The translations under genes were made by a program, and so were the position numbers. Positions 1 through 5,469 of a stretch of DNA of 5,469 nucleotides are shown here, piece by piece. The stretch lies in the NCBI GenBank assembly GCA_002279765.1, contig NCCR01000292.1:1-5469 (forward strand), given 5' to 3'. The DNA comes from Verrucomicrobia bacterium 12-59-8. GTDB taxonomy: Bacteria; Verrucomicrobiota; Verrucomicrobiae; Verrucomicrobiales; Verrucomicrobiaceae. Below the pieces are notes generated by a model. It was not told the DNA's origin. It saw only the letters and a list, made by a program, of their open reading frames with translations, and did no database searches. How positions within the stretch are numbered: the stretch's first letter is position 1; the number at the start of each line of letters is the position of its first letter.

Positions 1-1444
1 CCTCAAACTTCTGCAGCGCCAAAATCAGCCCCTCGATCGCCCAGATGTCCAGATGCGTCGTCGGCTCGTCCATCAGCAGCAGGTTCGGCGGATCCACCAG
101 AAACTTCACCAGGTTCACCCGGCTCTTCTCACCACCGCTCAGCACCCGGCACTTCTTGTGCACGTCCTCACGCTTGAACAGGAACGATCCCAAGATGCTC
201 CGCGCCTCATCCTCACGCAGCTCCGGCGCCACACGCTTCAGCTCCTCCAGCACACTGCAGTCCGGGTCCAAAGTATCCGCGCGATGCTGCGAAAAGTACC
301 CCATCTTCACATTCGTCCCCAGCTTCCGCTCACCCTTCTGAAACGGCACCTCGCCCGCCAAGATCTTGATCAGCGTTGACTTGCCCGAACCGTTCGGCCC
401 CACCAGCACCGTCCGCTCCCCACGCTCCACTTCCAGATCCAGCCCCGTGTACACCTTCTTCGTGCCATAGGCCTGATGAATGTCCGTCAGCGCAATCAGC
501 CGCTGACCACTCCGCTGCGGCTGCGGGAAGTTAAAGCGGAAGCCCTTTCGCAGCGGCCGCGGCTTGTCCAGCTTGTCCATCTTCGCCAGCTGCTTCTCAC
601 GGCTCTGCGCCTGGGACGCCTTCGACGCCACCGACCGGAAGCGATCAATGAAATCCTGGATCTGCTCGATCTCCTTCTGCTGGTTCTTGTACGACTGCAT
701 CGCACGCTCGTAGTTCTCCTCGCGCTGCTTCAGGTAGTCACTGTAGTTCCCTTGGTAAGACTGCAGCTTCCCCTCCTCGATCTCATACACCTGCTGCACC
801 AGCTCATCCATAAAGTCACGGTCATGCGAAATGATCAGCAGCGCCCCCGGATAATTTTTCAGATAATTCCGGAACCACATCAGCGACAGCAGATCCAGAT
901 GGTTCGTCGGCTCATCCAGCAGCAGCAGATCCGGCTCCATCACCAGCAGCCGCGTCATATGCGCACGCATCACCCAGCCACCGCTGAACTCACGCGCCGG
1001 CCTCGCAAAATCCTCCTCCTTGTACCCCAGTCCCTTCAGAATGCGCTTCGCCTTCGCCTCCGTCTGCGGGTCCTGCAGCGCATCATGCTTCGCATGCGCC
1101 TCAAAATATTCCGGGCTCGAAACATCCCCCGCCGCCTCAAACTCACGCAAAATCTTCTCCAGCGCCTCAATCTCCCCCGCCTTCCCCGTCGCCACCTCCA
1201 GCACCGTCTCCTCACCCACCGGCTCGCTCTCCTGCGGCAGGAATCCCACCGTCGTCCACTCATCCCGGATCACCTCCCCCGCATCCGGCACATCCGTCTT
1301 CAGGATCAGCGAAAACAGCGTCGATTTCCCCGCCCCATTCGGCCCCACCAGCGCCACCCGCTCCCCATAATTGATGGTCATCGACGCAGCGCTAAACAGC
1401 GTGCGGGCATTGAAAGTCTTGGTGACGTCGCGAATGGTAAGCAT
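1..1444 (-). CDS. ABC-F family ATP-binding protein (translation factor type), 3' end cut by window edge
   Basis: This is a soluble protein with two ATP-binding cassettes and no membrane segment, as in the ABC-F family, whose members act on the ribosome (EttA/Uup/YheS types or antibiotic-protection factors). I read 481 codons with no stop, so the C-terminus lies outside the window. Cassette 1 has Walker A GPNGAGKST (residues 34-42), signature FSGGW (153-157), Walker B plus the ABC-F hallmark LLLLDEPTNHLD (173-184) and the switch histidine in SHDRDF (His207). A charged helical linker covers about 225-310. Cassette 2 has Walker A GPNGSGKST (349-357), signature LSGGE (435-439) and LLLMDEPTTHLD (455-466). 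The ATG at 1442-1444 opens the typical start MLTIRDVTKTF, and an in-frame TGA at 1454-1456 rules out a longer start. No good ribosome binding site is visible; GAGGT lies too far upstream. Codons end mostly in G or C, unlike the neighbouring cassette. A housekeeping role is inferred; the exact subfamily cannot be fixed without the C-terminus. Confidence 0.95.
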   Translation of the reverse strand, partial: MLTIRDVTKTFNARTLFSAASMTINYGERVALVGPNGAGKSTLFSLILKTDVPDAGEVIRDEWTTVGFLPQESEPVGEETVLEVATGKAGEIEALEKILREFEAAGDVSSPEYFEAHAKHDALQDPQTEAKAKRILKGLGYKEEDFARPAREFSGGWVMRAHMTRLLVMEPDLLLLDEPTNHLDLLSLMWFRNYLKNYPGALLIISHDRDFMDELVQQVYEIEEGKLQSYQGNYSDYLKQREENYERAMQSYKNQQKEIEQIQDFIDRFRSVASKASQAQSREKQLAKMDKLDKPRPLRKGFRFNFPQPQRSGQRLIALTDIHQAYGTKKVYTGLDLEVERGERTVLVGPNGSGKSTLIKILAGEVPFQKGERKLGTNVKMGYFSQHRADTLDPDCSVLEELKRVAPELREDEARSILGSFLFKREDVHKKCRVLSGGEKSRVNLVKFLVDPPNLLLMDEPTTHLDIWAIEGLILALQKFE

Positions 1445-1620
1445 GGGGGCAGATCAGCTACCTCACCCCACGCCACTTGCAAGGCCCAAGCATGCCCCCG
1501 TGACGGAGGCGTAGCACATGCGTCTCGCATGTGGAGACGCTCAGCGCAGGCAGGCACTCCCGGGGCACCTGTACCGCCGCGTCTACCCTGCATTTTTCTG
1601 GAGATCTTTTTAAAATGAAG
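1445..1620. other. Intergenic spacer between protease and ABC-F genes
   Basis: This is 176 bp with no credible gene. Next to the protease stop it is A+T-rich (about 1590-1620); the rest is G+C-rich and carries a nested hairpin. No stem followed by a T-run is seen on the minus strand, so there is no canonical intrinsic terminator after the protease gene, and read-through into the ABC-F gene cannot be excluded. I found no convincing sigma-70-type promoter for the ABC-F gene. Confidence 0.6.
1515..1540. repeat. Two overlapping, mutually exclusive hairpins (REP-like element)
   Basis: CACATGCG (1515-1522) and CGCATGTG (1526-1533) form a perfect 8-bp stem with a 3-base loop. Overlapping it, GCGTCTC (1520-1526) and GAGACGC (1534-1540) form a perfect 7-bp stem with a 7-base loop. 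The two cannot pair at the same time in one strand. There is no following T-run, so this is not a standard terminator. It could be a dispersed REP-like palindrome or an mRNA 3'-end stabiliser for the protease transcript; the function is inferred. Confidence 0.55.
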
Positions 1621-4185
1621 TCACTCACCCCAGAAAGCAATCTCAGCCCGAGCTTCGATCTCAGCTTCGATGGCCGTGTAGATGGGCAGTTCCACATCCA
1701 AAGCTTCAAAAGAGATGGCTAGGCAGTATCGGGCAAGGCCTGCCCCCTCTTTGTGGTTCCAGCCAACATGAGCACGCACCGCAATGGCAAAGGTCTCCGG
1801 AAGCTGGTTGGCTTCAATGACAGCCCAGTCTTTTTGAACGGAGCCAAAGTTCCTGCTCACATCGACTTCACCATGCTGCGTTTGCTGGTGAATTTGCCAG
1901 GGAAGCCCGCGGTATGAACGAGTCTTGTTGCCCTGCATACGGTTCTTGAAATGATCGAGTGGCTCGCTCTCGCAGATCGAACACCAGTCGAGCCAGGTTT
2001 CCAAATAACCGGTTCGGCGTGAGCGAGTACGTCGAGGGCAGGCGGTGTAGGCGAGTGTGACATCGATTCGAATTTTCGCTTCTAAGGCAGCATTGCGGAT
2101 CTCGTCAGGAATGGTGATCTGATAAAGATGGTACTGCTTGCTCCGAATTTCTTTAGCCTCAGCCGTGATGAGGGTGACACGCTGCGGATTGTTGGTGGTC
2201 GCGCGTTCGAGAGATGGTATGCCATACCCAATCAACCGCAAAACCTTGTCTTTGTCTGCGATATTGAGTGCCCATTCTGGCCACTGGGCGCTTTGCACGA
2301 TCAAGGCCCGGTAAAGCTGGGCCGAGCCCTCAGGAAAGAGATTTTGCAAATGCGCGGCAATGTGAGCTACCTTCGGTGCCGCGTAAGAAGTGCCGACGTC
2401 ATCACGCGAAATGGCCGGCTCACCATGCAAGGTGCTGGCAATCATTTCGGGTGCCGTAGCCTCACTGGTGGGCAAACTGCGGGTCAATGGATTGCTGTGC
2501 AGACGGTCTCCGCCGTACTCAACCACCTCCGGTTTAACCACTTCCCACAGTGGCGAGTAACCCGCACGGCTGAAAGCAGAGGGGAAATGCTGCTGCCGCG
2601 CGAATGAACGCCGAAATCCCTCATCGACAACCGCATGTGCAATCGAACCCACGGTAAGCGCATGGAGGCTCTGTGCCGGACTGGAAACTCGGGCGTGATC
2701 TTCGAGCAATTGAGCTGGGTGCGCGGCTCCATCTTGCAGACTGTTAAATATGGCCGCAGGCTCAACATTTCCTGCGGCTTGGATGAAGAGCAAATCGTAC
2801 CGGTGTGACAAGTCATCGATTTTTGCCGCCCAGGAGCACATGCGGTGGCCTGCACACGGGCTGTGACCTGCGATGGAATGATTGAAGATTTTCGTGTCTT
2901 TCCCGCCGCCTGCAAAATGCGCTACCACCTCAGTCAGATAGCGTTCGGGCGGCAGACTGTCGGGCAGTTGGTTGTTAGCATCCAGTACTCGTGCGTTTTG
3001 AATCCACGCCACCGGCTGCACATCACCATTTTTTGGGACCTCACGCGGATAAAGCACAGCCCCCGCCACACGTGTGCCGTGACCTCTGGGTGCCACATAG
3101 TCACCCGCGTCATCGGATTCCTCGTCAGGCAGAAAGCACCGGCTGGTCGCCTTGTCCATGGCAGGTTCAATCCAGCGGTGCTCTTCCTGAATGCCGCTAT
3201 CAATGACGCAAACCTTTGGGGCGCTGGCATCAGGTGGCAGAATATTCATCTCACTGTCCACTCCTTCGGCCTCCGGCGAGCCAGGGAGGAACTGGATGTC
3301 AGGAGGCATGGAAACCTCAAACAAGTGTTTGAAATTTTGGATGAGGTCACGAAACCCCTTTCCTGACATCCGGAAACGTGCTTCAACGCTGTCTGGAAAC
3401 ACGATGCCTCTTCGTGTCTCAGCGGGAGAGTCGTGCTTCAATCCATCAAGAACCACGCCGCCGTAGTGGCTGATAAATGCATTCAGTTCATCGGATCTGG
3501 CATCGGCTGCATCCATCCAAATTTCGTCAGCCTTTTCGAGATCCTTGCTTCGCAGTTCGGCCTCCTGAGCGGCTCTATCTTCATGACTTTGCTCTTCCTT
3601 TTTTCGCGGAAGGCGGGTCCACTCAATATTTCTGCTGCTTGCTGCCGTCTGAATACCAAGATCGAAAGTATAAACAGTCGTGTCATTAAACGGCCAGAGT
3701 TCACTGACTCTTCCCAGCAGCAATTCAGAGAGTTTTCGTGCATCATCCGGCTCATAAAACACGTCCAGGACGCTGGCTGCACCGCCGCCGCCTCGGCTGT
3801 TGCTTTCAAACAATGAGAGCACCTCCGCGAGCTTCTTCAGATCGAGGGTTTCCGAGGCTGCAAACATCAGTCCGCTTTCAGTCTCAGCGACCAATTCAAC
3901 GCCCAGCGCATACGCCAGTGCGTCAACGTCGGTGCCTTCAGGCACCCGGAGGAGAAAGCCTTTTCCGTGTATTTCGGGAAGTCCGGTCGCACGCCGTTCT
4001 TCTGCGCTGGACATCGCTTCACGCTTCATCAAATCGAGTTGCCCACGAATTTTTCCTGAGTGGCCTTTCCTATCAGCTAAGACTGCCGCAACCTCTGGTG
4101 AAACCTTTCGTCCGCCATTAAACTTCGCATCGAACGATCCCTCGAATGCCAAATGCAGATGCGGGAAATCGTTGGTGGTTGGCAT
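1621..4185 (-). CDS. ietS: Subtilisin-like serine protease of the IetAS anti-phage system (IetS)
   Basis: This is an 854-aa S8-family peptidase, predicted to cleave proteins in the cytoplasm as the effector of the IetAS defence pair. The catalytic residues are all visible: Asp329 in VCVIDSG, His369 in RGHGTRVAG, oxyanion Asn473 in QAAGN and nucleophile Ser600 in DVGTSYAAP. No signal peptide or membrane segment is seen. The catalytic domain spans about 322-665. It is preceded by a long N-terminal region (1-320) that opens with FPHLHLAFEG, typical of this protein group, and includes a charged, probably helical stretch (about 190-235). A C-terminal region (about 670-854), probably beta-rich, follows; it contains Cys716 and a WCSIC motif (Cys735, Cys738). 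The protein is much larger than secreted subtilisins, and no clear cleavable propeptide is evident. The ATG lies 8 bp after the stop of the ATPase gene and has no Shine-Dalgarno sequence, which suggests translational coupling. The protease family is certain from the motifs; the IetS assignment rests on size, N-terminal style and partner, recalled from known systems and not searched. Confidence 0.9.
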   Translation of the reverse strand: MPTTNDFPHLHLAFEGSFDAKFNGGRKVSPEVAAVLADRKGHSGKIRGQLDLMKREAMSSAEERRATGLPEIHGKGFLLRVPEGTDVDALAYALGVELVAETESGLMFAASETLDLKKLAEVLSLFESNSRGGGGAASVLDVFYEPDDARKLSELLLGRVSELWPFNDTTVYTFDLGIQTAASSRNIEWTRLPRKKEEQSHEDRAAQEAELRSKDLEKADEIWMDAADARSDELNAFISHYGGVVLDGLKHDSPAETRRGIVFPDSVEARFRMSGKGFRDLIQNFKHLFEVSMPPDIQFLPGSPEAEGVDSEMNILPPDASAPKVCVIDSGIQEEHRWIEPAMDKATSRCFLPDEESDDAGDYVAPRGHGTRVAGAVLYPREVPKNGDVQPVAWIQNARVLDANNQLPDSLPPERYLTEVVAHFAGGGKDTKIFNHSIAGHSPCAGHRMCSWAAKIDDLSHRYDLLFIQAAGNVEPAAIFNSLQDGAAHPAQLLEDHARVSSPAQSLHALTVGSIAHAVVDEGFRRSFARQQHFPSAFSRAGYSPLWEVVKPEVVEYGGDRLHSNPLTRSLPTSEATAPEMIASTLHGEPAISRDDVGTSYAAPKVAHIAAHLQNLFPEGSAQLYRALIVQSAQWPEWALNIADKDKVLRLIGYGIPSLERATTNNPQRVTLITAEAKEIRSKQYHLYQITIPDEIRNAALEAKIRIDVTLAYTACPRRTRSRRTGYLETWLDWCSICESEPLDHFKNRMQGNKTRSYRGLPWQIHQQTQHGEVDVSRNFGSVQKDWAVIEANQLPETFAIAVRAHVGWNHKEGAGLARYCLAISFEALDVELPIYTAIEAEIEARAEIAFWGE

Positions 4186-4193
4186 GGTGAGAA

Positions 4194-5183
4194 TTACAGC
4201 ACTTGGTTGTGGCGCTCGCTGGCTTCAGCCAAAGCAAAACGTACGTCATCTGCCGTCAAAACTTTTCTGCCTTCAAGCACAGCGTGTTTTGCGGCATTTC
4301 GGCCGATCTGCGTGACCTCAGAGCATGACATGCCGTCCATCTCACGAGAGAGGTGGTCCCAACGGATGCCTTTTTCCGCCGTTACAGAAGACACGGTGCT
4401 CTTCAGAATGCCTTCAATCTGCTGGTTCGTTGGCAGAGGGATGCGGAGTACTTCATCGAAGCGGCGGATCAGTGCCGGATCGAGTGCCGAGTCCAGATTG
4501 GTTGCCGCAATGACCAGCCCCTCTCCCCGATAGCCCTCGAGCATTTCCAGCAAGGCATTGGTGATTCGGGTGGCCTCACCCACATCGTTGCGCTCCGTGC
4601 GTGAACGGGCCAGCGTGTCGCACTCATCGAGAAAGAGCGCGCAAGGGGTCGCTTGGGCTGCATCGAAGACTTTGCGAAGGTTGGTGTGAGTTTCGCCGAA
4701 GTAAGACGAAAGCAACGTGTCAAAGCGGAGTTTCAGCAAAGGCAGGCCGATGTTCCAGGCCAAACGTTCAGCGCCAAGACTTTTGCCACAGCCTGGTGGG
4801 CCATACAGCAAGATGCGCCGGCGGGGATGAAGCCCATGAGTGGCTAGGCGAGAACTTGCGGCAAATTCCTTTTCGATCCGGCGGAATCGCTGTTCCACCA
4901 GTTCAGGAAGCACCATGTAGTGCCGCAGTTGATCACGCGGAACTTCTTGCAGCAGAGGTGCTGAATCCCGACGATTTGTAGGAAGGCGGGAGAGTGTGCC
5001 CGGGGTGGGATCGAAGCTCCGCGTTTTGCGCGGGTCGCTGAGAATCCGGTCTAGCTCCTCGGCAACTCGCGAATGGCCCGCTTTTTTTTCATCTTCAACC
5101 ACCTTGCGGCAGAGCACGTCCACATCTGCCCCTGATCCAGACTGGATCGCACGAAAAAGGCGCTTGAGGAGAGTTGAGTTCAT
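4194..5183 (-). CDS. ietA: AAA+ ATPase of the IetAS anti-phage system (IetA)
   Basis: This is a 329-aa AAA+ ATPase, predicted to form a ring that remodels a target or controls the adjacent protease. An N-terminal helical domain (about 1-85) contains a helix-rich segment (CRKVVEDEKKAGHSRVAEEL, about 25-44). The AAA core follows: Walker A GPPGCGKS (128-135), a candidate aromatic pore loop SYFGET (160-165), Walker B FLDE (184-187), the conserved RNDVGE (198-203), sensor 1 ATN (227-229) and candidate arginine fingers Arg240/Arg241 in LIRRFDEV. A helical lid with a second helix-rich element (about 282-322) ends the protein. No zinc-protease motif is present, so it is not an FtsH-type protease; proteolysis is supplied by the next gene. 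The codon directly before the ATG is TGA (5184-5186), so the start cannot lie further upstream. No Shine-Dalgarno sequence is present. It is the first gene of a two-gene operon. The AAA+ call is firm; the IetA name depends on the subtilase partner and on family resemblance. Confidence 0.9.
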   Translation of the reverse strand: MNSTLLKRLFRAIQSGSGADVDVLCRKVVEDEKKAGHSRVAEELDRILSDPRKTRSFDPTPGTLSRLPTNRRDSAPLLQEVPRDQLRHYMVLPELVEQRFRRIEKEFAASSRLATHGLHPRRRILLYGPPGCGKSLGAERLAWNIGLPLLKLRFDTLLSSYFGETHTNLRKVFDAAQATPCALFLDECDTLARSRTERNDVGEATRITNALLEMLEGYRGEGLVIAATNLDSALDPALIRRFDEVLRIPLPTNQQIEGILKSTVSSVTAEKGIRWDHLSREMDGMSCSEVTQIGRNAAKHAVLEGRKVLTADDVRFALAEASERHNQVL

Positions 5184-5253
5184 TCAGTGGAAACGGCGAA
5201 AAATTTATCAGTCAACCTTAACAAGCTCGTGCCAGGGTGTAAACCTACGTTTC

Positions 5254-5270
5254 TCATGCCACTGTCATGA
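5254..5270. repeat. Short inverted repeat in operon leader
   Basis: TCATG (5254-5258) and CATGA (5266-5270) form a 5-bp inverted repeat with a 7-base gap. It would lie inside the untranslated leader if the promoter candidate further upstream is used. Arms this short arise by chance easily; a role as an operator half-site pair is speculative. Confidence 0.25.
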
Positions 5271-5291
5271 ATTTTAGCGTATAAAAGCAAT

Positions 5292-5306
5292 GGGTGATTA
5301 TCACCC
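5292..5306. promoter_or_regulatory. Perfect 15-bp palindrome, candidate operator
   Basis: GGGTGAT-T-ATCACCC is a perfect inverted repeat with 7-bp arms around a single central base. It lies about 110 bp upstream of the ATPase start and covers the -10 element of the best promoter candidate for that gene. This is the size and placement expected of a dimeric repressor site. The symmetry is seen directly; the operator role and the identity of any regulator are inferred. Confidence 0.45.
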
Positions 5307-5325
5307 GAAGTGGCCCATTTTGCAA
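5297..5325 (-). promoter_or_regulatory. Candidate sigma-70-type promoter for the ietA-ietS operon
   Basis: On the minus strand, TTGCAA (5320-5325) is a 4/6 match to the -35 consensus and GATAAT (5297-5302) a 5/6 match to the -10 consensus, separated by the optimal 17 bases. Transcription would start near 5290, giving a leader of roughly 107 nt before the ATPase ATG. The -10 is embedded in the 15-bp palindrome, which would allow direct repression. A second A+T-rich -10-like TAAAAT lies at 5271-5276 but has no acceptable -35. Confidence 0.4.
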
Positions 5326-5360
5326 ATGAATTCGAAATTTTTGCTCGCCGTTGAAAAAGA

Positions 5361-5378
5361 TGCCAGGCAAGAATGGCA
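5361..5378. repeat. Inverted repeat TGCCA-N8-TGGCA
   Basis: TGCCA (5361-5365) and TGGCA (5374-5378) are exact reverse complements separated by 8 bases, in the A+T-rich control region. The dyad has the length of a typical dimer binding site, but arms of 5 bp are weak evidence. No downstream T-run is placed to make it a terminator. Confidence 0.25.
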
Positions 5379-5449
5379 CTTAATTAAGGGCGGGTTTCGT
5401 TTTTAGCCAAGCTCATTCACAGAACCATTTGTAAATCTAAAGGTTAGCA

Positions 5450-5469
5450 ATGGTTAAGCGTATTGATCA
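5450..5469 (+). CDS. Possible start of a divergent gene, cut by window edge
   Basis: Six complete codons beginning MVKRID run to the right edge. The support is a Shine-Dalgarno-like AAAGG (5439-5443) six bases before the ATG and an in-frame TAA (5438-5440) that bounds the start. No product can be named. If real, it would be transcribed away from the ATPase gene and share the A+T-rich control region, where a regulator gene would be a natural neighbour. The stretch is too short to test coding bias, and a minus-strand gene ending here is also possible. Confidence 0.25.

Follow-up and report, generated by a model that had tools for sequence, protein, structure and literature searches.

A divergent IetAS-type gene pair, predicted to act against phages, in Verrucomicrobia bacterium 12-59-8

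IetAS, in which an AAA+ ATPase (IetA) is paired with a subtilisin-like protease (IetS), has reportedly been described as a defence system (Gao 2020). We investigated a copy of this gene pair in a 5,469-nucleotide stretch of DNA from Verrucomicrobia bacterium 12-59-8 (contig NCCR01000292.1), referred to below as the window. The window pair resembles, in its protein types and layout, SgiAT from Salmonella genomic island 1 (SGI1) and IetAS from plasmid pTiC58, each of which, according to PMC5006074, joins a subtilisin-like toxin and an AAA-ATPase antitoxin in one operon; in the same text SgiA is the antitoxin and SgiT the toxin when studied in E. coli, and the pTiC58 pair is given as the closest one known. 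Unlike the window pair, both of these systems, which we compared by description, are carried by mobile elements, and work on them concerned how those elements are maintained. Proteins of the phage replication machinery are stated to activate ietAS among other systems (a passage of PMC10732053, citing Stokar-Avihail 2023). A table row in PMC10286901, which lists Stokar-Avihail 2023 among several sources, places ietAS among the systems that phages overcome via functional proteins, with DNA polymerase and single-stranded DNA-binding protein as examples. The mechanism of IetAS is called unknown in a passage of PMC11878078.

The pair in the window is a new, divergent member of IetAS, a kind of system that is already known, and it holds little to surprise a specialist. 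Both genes are on the minus strand, with ietA (4194-5183, 329 amino acids) upstream of ietS (1621-4185, 854 amino acids) and a gap of 8 bp (bases 4186-4193) between them, just as an initial annotation, made from the sequence alone, had placed them. Chance or broken open reading frames (ORFs) can be ruled out, as both frames are open and conserved. The ATPase belongs to the classical clade of AAA+ proteins (Pfam AAA, 106 bits against a cut-off of 21.2). Located by script, its Walker A motif GPPGCGKS (residues 128-135, including Lys134; minus strand, 4779-4802), Walker B motif (residues 183-187, with Asp186/Glu187; minus strand, 4623-4637) and sensor 1 motif AATN (residues 226-229, including Asn229; minus strand, 4497-4508) are all intact, as the annotation held, and conserved across relatives: Lys134, Asn229 and Arg241 are shared by all 132 aligned IetA sequences, and Asp186/Glu187 are invariant among the aligned relatives. 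Two further features emerge from conservation in 58 IetA sequences. Tyr161-Phe162-Gly163 (minus strand, 4695-4703), with an invariant Gly163 and with Tyr161 and Phe162 kept in at least 90% of the sequences, is a probable pore loop, which we assume by analogy with p97/Vps4. The invariant pair Arg240-Arg241 (minus strand, 4461-4466) presumably provides the arginine fingers familiar from AAA ATPases. Unlike PAN, Rpt, FtsH and p97, IetA combines a single AAA module with a small helical segment at its N-terminus (three helices, residues 3-49, barely covered by the structure searches), and its partner is a subtilase.

The protease is of the S8 (subtilisin-like) type (Pfam Peptidase_S8, 104.5 bits against a cut-off of 21.8), and its predicted structure has a mean predicted local distance difference test score (pLDDT) of 82.2. 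From its N-terminus, it comprises an alpha/beta region (residues 1-295; minus strand, 3301-4185), supported by the secondary structure of the model and by a profile alignment in which it pairs with the corresponding N-terminal portion of classical-type IetS; a flexible linker with pLDDT below 50 (residues 297-310; minus strand, 3256-3297); the catalytic domain (residues 312-665; minus strand, 2191-3252); and, in the structure model, a C-terminal beta domain (residues 669-828; minus strand, 1702-2181). The annotated catalytic residues were located by script at Asp329 (3199-3201), His369 (3079-3081), Asn473 (2767-2769) and Ser600 (2386-2388), all on the minus strand. They are identical in all 133 sequences of an alignment made of the window, 12 loci and 120 listed matches; for both proteins, such conservation greatly exceeds what chance would give. 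The polar N-terminus, MPTTNDFPHLHLAFEG, as read by eye, fits the claim that the protein is leaderless. A single-sequence search for a solved structure close to IetS found none, and a profile search returned three weak matches. A propeptide-like fold is a conceivable reading of the N-terminal region, a part that the structure searches barely covered. Structure alignment to the alkaline subtilases KP-43 and SubHal extends to residue 826. KP-43 and SubHal are secreted enzymes; in contrast, IetS has no evident leader and is extended at its N-terminus by a region of about 300 residues.

The assignment to IetAS follows from family models. In PADLOC, the best match of IetA is PDLC02196 (IetA; 241 bits, E 6.5e-72), with IetA models in all four top positions, and the best match of IetS is PDLC02198 (IetS; 192.5 bits, E 2.3e-57), with IetS models in all eight. 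The anti-phage models of NCBIfam, where the proteins are named IteA and IteS, also rank first, although their scores stay far under the curated cut-offs (211.6 bits against 510 for IteA, 129.1 bits against 900 for IteS). The window pair is thus a divergent branch which, judged by these scores, is outside the NCBIfam equivalogs NF042959/NF042956 yet within the same wider family. Compared with four plasmid-borne pairs of the classical IetAS type, IetA is 30-32% identical and IetS 21-25%. Because the top PADLOC match of IetS spans residues 313-848 only, we compared a profile of 84 sequences from the window's branch with one of five classical-type IetS sequences. This gave one alignment, of columns 2-856 with columns 1-815 (probability 100, E 3.2e-67), gap-rich around residues 143-222. 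The near full-length alignment suggests that the N-terminal region, too, is probably homologous to that of classical IetS, though weakly alike. Six residues of this region, W164, W223, D265, R270, G277 and D280, are invariant. The window pair therefore shares with IetAS the two protein families, the gene order, near full-length homology of IetS and the catalytic residues, and it differs from the classical type in the low identity and the equivalog scores given above. An unrelated AAA+ protein or subtilase, which the initial annotation had named as an outcome that would speak against it, is ruled out by the PADLOC ranking together with the profile match. The description of the locus as an IetAS-type anti-phage cassette accordingly holds for family and pairing; the copy is a divergent one, and its anti-phage role is a prediction.

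The two genes keep company in related loci. We opened 12 full-length relatives (six genome contigs, one viral contig and five plasmids), and ietA is directly upstream of ietS in 11 of them; four further relatives from the phylum are also paired, which brings the count to 15 of 16. The exception is a lone ietS on a plasmid of Planctomyces sp. SH-PL62 (locus L068, 7974-10529), which retains all four catalytic residues and directly follows parA/parB. Distances among IetA sequences correlate with those among IetS sequences (r = 0.976 for 20 pairs, a value that gains from how deeply the two branches are divided, and 0.931 for 12 pairs of the close branch), and none of 2000 permutations reached either value. 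This fits inheritance of the pair as a unit, and shared descent alone would give the same. At least 120 related IetS sequences are listed, 52-96% identical, among them matches at 65-66% identity from Haloferula sargassicola and 'Verrucomicrobia bacterium'; in an indirect comparison made by eye, at least 24 of these 120 IetS clusters have a counterpart among the listed IetA clusters whose longest contig is of exactly equal length.

The window's branch of IetAS is rare and patchy. Full-length members occur in 4 of 387 genomes of the phylum (E<=1e-40), with one partial match besides. Among 56 relatives of the nearest genome, which we label G001, there was no full-length IetS, and the three matches at E<=0.001 were all partial, with 28-31% identity. 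G001 itself, 93% identical to the window across the ABC-F gene described below and its leader, yielded no IetS match and no IetA match at E<=1e-20. Distant IetAS-type pairs are present in the genus (L092 in G035, L096 in G057 and L098 in G016; 29-32% identity for IetA, 18-21% for IetS); the scan of 56 relatives undercounts such pairs because only L092 of the three surfaced there. In another distant relative from the genus (L093 in G009) the protease frame appears split in two, reflecting decay or an assembly error.

The cassette adjoins a gene that the genus keeps. An ABC-F ATPase gene (minus strand, 2-1444, running off the window; NCBIfam ribo_prot_ABC_F, 394 bits) has a match in every one of the 48 genus genomes when paralogues are included, and 45 of them still match at E<1e-100. 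Homology with sister genomes begins sharply at about 1495-1501, the boundary of the cassette, and continues into the ABC-F gene; the sequence ahead of this boundary varies among sister species. GC content at third codon positions is 0.60 in ietA and 0.56 in ietS, against 0.81 in the ABC-F gene, and the lower values are in line with acquisition of the pair.

In 20 sister genomes (L072-L091) we examined the stretch that precedes the ABC-F gene, over 7 kb in 17 of them and over 1.4, 4.8 and 5.1 kb in G031, G032 and G005. Several of these loci hold a conserved block (clusters 0-4), and at least seven of the 20 contain defence-like genes, which differ from one to the next. Among 20 ORFs chosen by eye from ten of the loci, family scans identified a match to the Dsr1 model (E 1.5e-11) and a PIN domain in G002; PDC-S08 and PDC-M70A adjoining a thymidylate-kinase-like gene in G029; RhuM/PDC-S05 in G003; a methylase, NsnA/GmrSD and HEPN in G020; PDC-M54A (E 3.6e-11), with a STAND match under the Pfam cut-off, in G019; SMEK, NB-ARC and TPR in G057; and HEPN with a nucleotidyltransferase in G034. 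The ORFs chosen from G001, G024 and G032 included no defence-like gene. Because a choice by eye is biased, we also scanned 88 ORFs of at least 150 amino acids from 19 slot loci and 92 ORFs from as many control loci, drawn from these same genomes; the control was a single slot, upstream of one ABC-F paralogue, trimmed to equal length where possible. At E<=1e-8, 53 PADLOC families were matched in the slot loci and 9 in the control loci, counts which overstate the gap because dozens of related models all match a single RhuM gene. The matches in the control loci were to mad3 and mad8 (two ORFs each), DrmC models and MkoB; those in the slot loci that can be assigned to genes (25 of the 53 families are named) fall on nine genes in six genomes. 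This is modest evidence that the slot upstream of the ABC-F gene may be a site where the genus gains and loses defence genes. The initial annotation had also named conserved housekeeping neighbours as an observation that would speak against it; the setting favours a defence slot over a housekeeping one.

We favour, with reasonable though far from full confidence, the reading that the window holds a two-gene IetAS anti-phage cassette in which IetA would restrain a toxic IetS until a phage replication protein disturbs IetA. What the sequences themselves show are the intact parts, the pairing, the inheritance as a unit, the patchy distribution and the genomic setting. By analogy with the relatives, IetS would be a toxic cytoplasmic protease, and IetA would form a ring powered by ATP, grip substrates with its pore loop, bind the N-terminal region of IetS and restrain the protease in healthy cells. 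A phage replication protein that engages or overloads IetA would set IetS free, and the freed protease would cut essential proteins, so that the infected cell is stopped before the phage matures. Toxicity, restraint, trigger and outcome are thus carried over from relatives.

Several observations weigh against this reading. The scores of both proteins are under the equivalog cut-offs, and anti-phage activity of the window pair is predicted from sequence. The correlation between IetA and IetS distances, besides being inflated in the larger sample, follows from genes that travel together and is no sign of physical contact; the N-terminal region of IetS as the site contacted by IetA is a guess. 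The lone IetS of the Planctomyces plasmid sits awkwardly with an obligate restraint by IetA: a search of this 86-kb plasmid, which covered the plasmid and not the chromosome, found no IetA-like sequence at E<=1e-3. For SgiAT, the text of PMC5006074 reports no post-segregational killing in its own test. Finally, defence-like genes did not turn up in 13 of the 20 sister loci, and ten of these 13 lay outside the gene-by-gene scan.

A possible though unlikely alternative is that the pair acts as a direct ATP-dependent protease: IetA would recognise a phage replication protein, unfold it and thread it into IetS, comparable to FtsH or the PAN-proteasome, and the cell would not be killed. The two-protein composition, a single-module AAA+ ATPase with a protease, is what this alternative shares with such machines. 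However, the SGI1 homologues are described in PMC5006074 as an antitoxin and a toxin, and subtilisins are open single-chain enzymes; the model of IetS gives no sign of a closed chamber.

It is improbable that the pair is primarily a toxin-antitoxin or stability module that serves the persistence of mobile elements, with phage defence secondary or absent. The title of Yamamoto 2009, which appears among the references of PMC5006074, has IetAS determining the stability of pTiC58, and the Planctomyces IetS adjoins ParA/ParB. Plasmids also hold many IetS-like sequences: matches to IetS at E<=1e-5 occur in 445 plasmid records, and 311 of these records are typed as conjugative, although many of the 445 matches are at low identity and some possibly represent other subtilases. 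Twelve records reach at least 80% IetS coverage; besides the five that we opened, these are five from Synechocystis/Leptolyngbya and two distant ones (Roseovarius, 26%; Pseudomonas putida, 21%). The window pair, in contrast, borders on a chromosomal gene that the genus retains, the window contains neither an integrase nor a relaxase nor a replication gene, and in some sister species the same slot is occupied by other defence-like genes. A role in stability and one against phages are compatible with each other.

The neighbours of the relatives bear on a further idea, to which we assign a very low probability, namely that this branch of IetAS may be the back-up arm of a methylation-based defence: IetA would sense that a phage has blocked or escaped the methylase system next to it, and would then release IetS. 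We scanned 19 neighbours selected from loci of the window's branch and one from a classical-type locus. Genes with a clear defence assignment flank IetAS in five of 16 loci. In L013 these are type I HsdM and HsdS, with a 4-base overlap between the end of ietS and the beginning of hsdM; L016 has a type I methylase directly upstream; L017 has PDC-S28; on a Leptolyngbya plasmid (L070), which matches HmaB, HmaC and PDC-S02, IetAS is located between an HmaB-like methylase gene and an HmaC-like DUF499 ATPase gene; and L131 has PDC-S37/Hhe and a type I restriction fragment. A second Leptolyngbya plasmid (L071) resembles L070 by annotation, with IetAS within an Hma-like system. Matches of neighbours in L129 (3.7e-12) and L130 (1.7e-9) are weak, and eight of the 19 scanned neighbours gave no match at thresholds of 1e-10 or 1e-5. 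The methylase-associated relatives (L013, L016, L070 and, by annotation, L071) are the basis of the back-up idea; three or four of 16 loci, with neighbours partly scanned, are too few to separate it from ordinary clustering of defence genes.

A housekeeping pair for protein quality control is hardly credible, although an AAA+ motor with a protease is the usual layout of such systems, given that no full-length member occurs in the 56 relatives and only 4 of 387 phylum genomes have one.

Some features of the related loci and of the window stand apart from these arguments. Near the classical-type IetAS locus there is a TIR-pAgo-like gene. In L131, a 1789-amino-acid protein (11707-17076) matching PDC-S37 and Hhe is encoded just downstream of the IetAS pair. 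A gene with a terminase-endonuclease domain precedes ietA on a Phycisphaeraceae contig (L012, 4201-6480) and on a viral contig (L018, 1890-4163), and the two genes have near-identical starts; this suggests that a phage-like element may carry the IetAS pair in these two loci. In the window, upstream of ietA, a dispersed repeat on the minus strand (5353-5404), with a hairpin (5360-5379) and a T-run, is matched in 22 of 48 genus genomes, with at most 18 matches per genome. The copy in G001 adjoins an ORF that, by eye, resembles a Y1-type transposase (L007, 130-1404), and for this reason the repeat may be a repetitive extragenic palindromic (REP)-like element. Between ietS and the leader of the ABC-F gene there is a 19-base palindrome (1515-1533), CACATGCG-AGA-CGCATGTG; it had no match among the compared loci, and an exact 19-base pattern across part of it is absent from the 48 genus genomes. 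No methylase is shown in the window, and Rfam found no RNA element there at gathering scores. We claim no promoter or terminator because the counts in 1400-5469 (two promoters where 1.8 are expected, six terminators where 5.0 are expected) resemble those of shuffled sequences.

IetAS is found by standard tools. The main use of the window pair is comparative: an intact copy far from the tested branches, with at least 120 listed relatives, offers a handle on the system, and the positions common to both IetAS branches are candidates for the contact between IetA and IetS and for the switch. For the genus, the slot upstream of the ABC-F gene may be a place to seek further defence genes.

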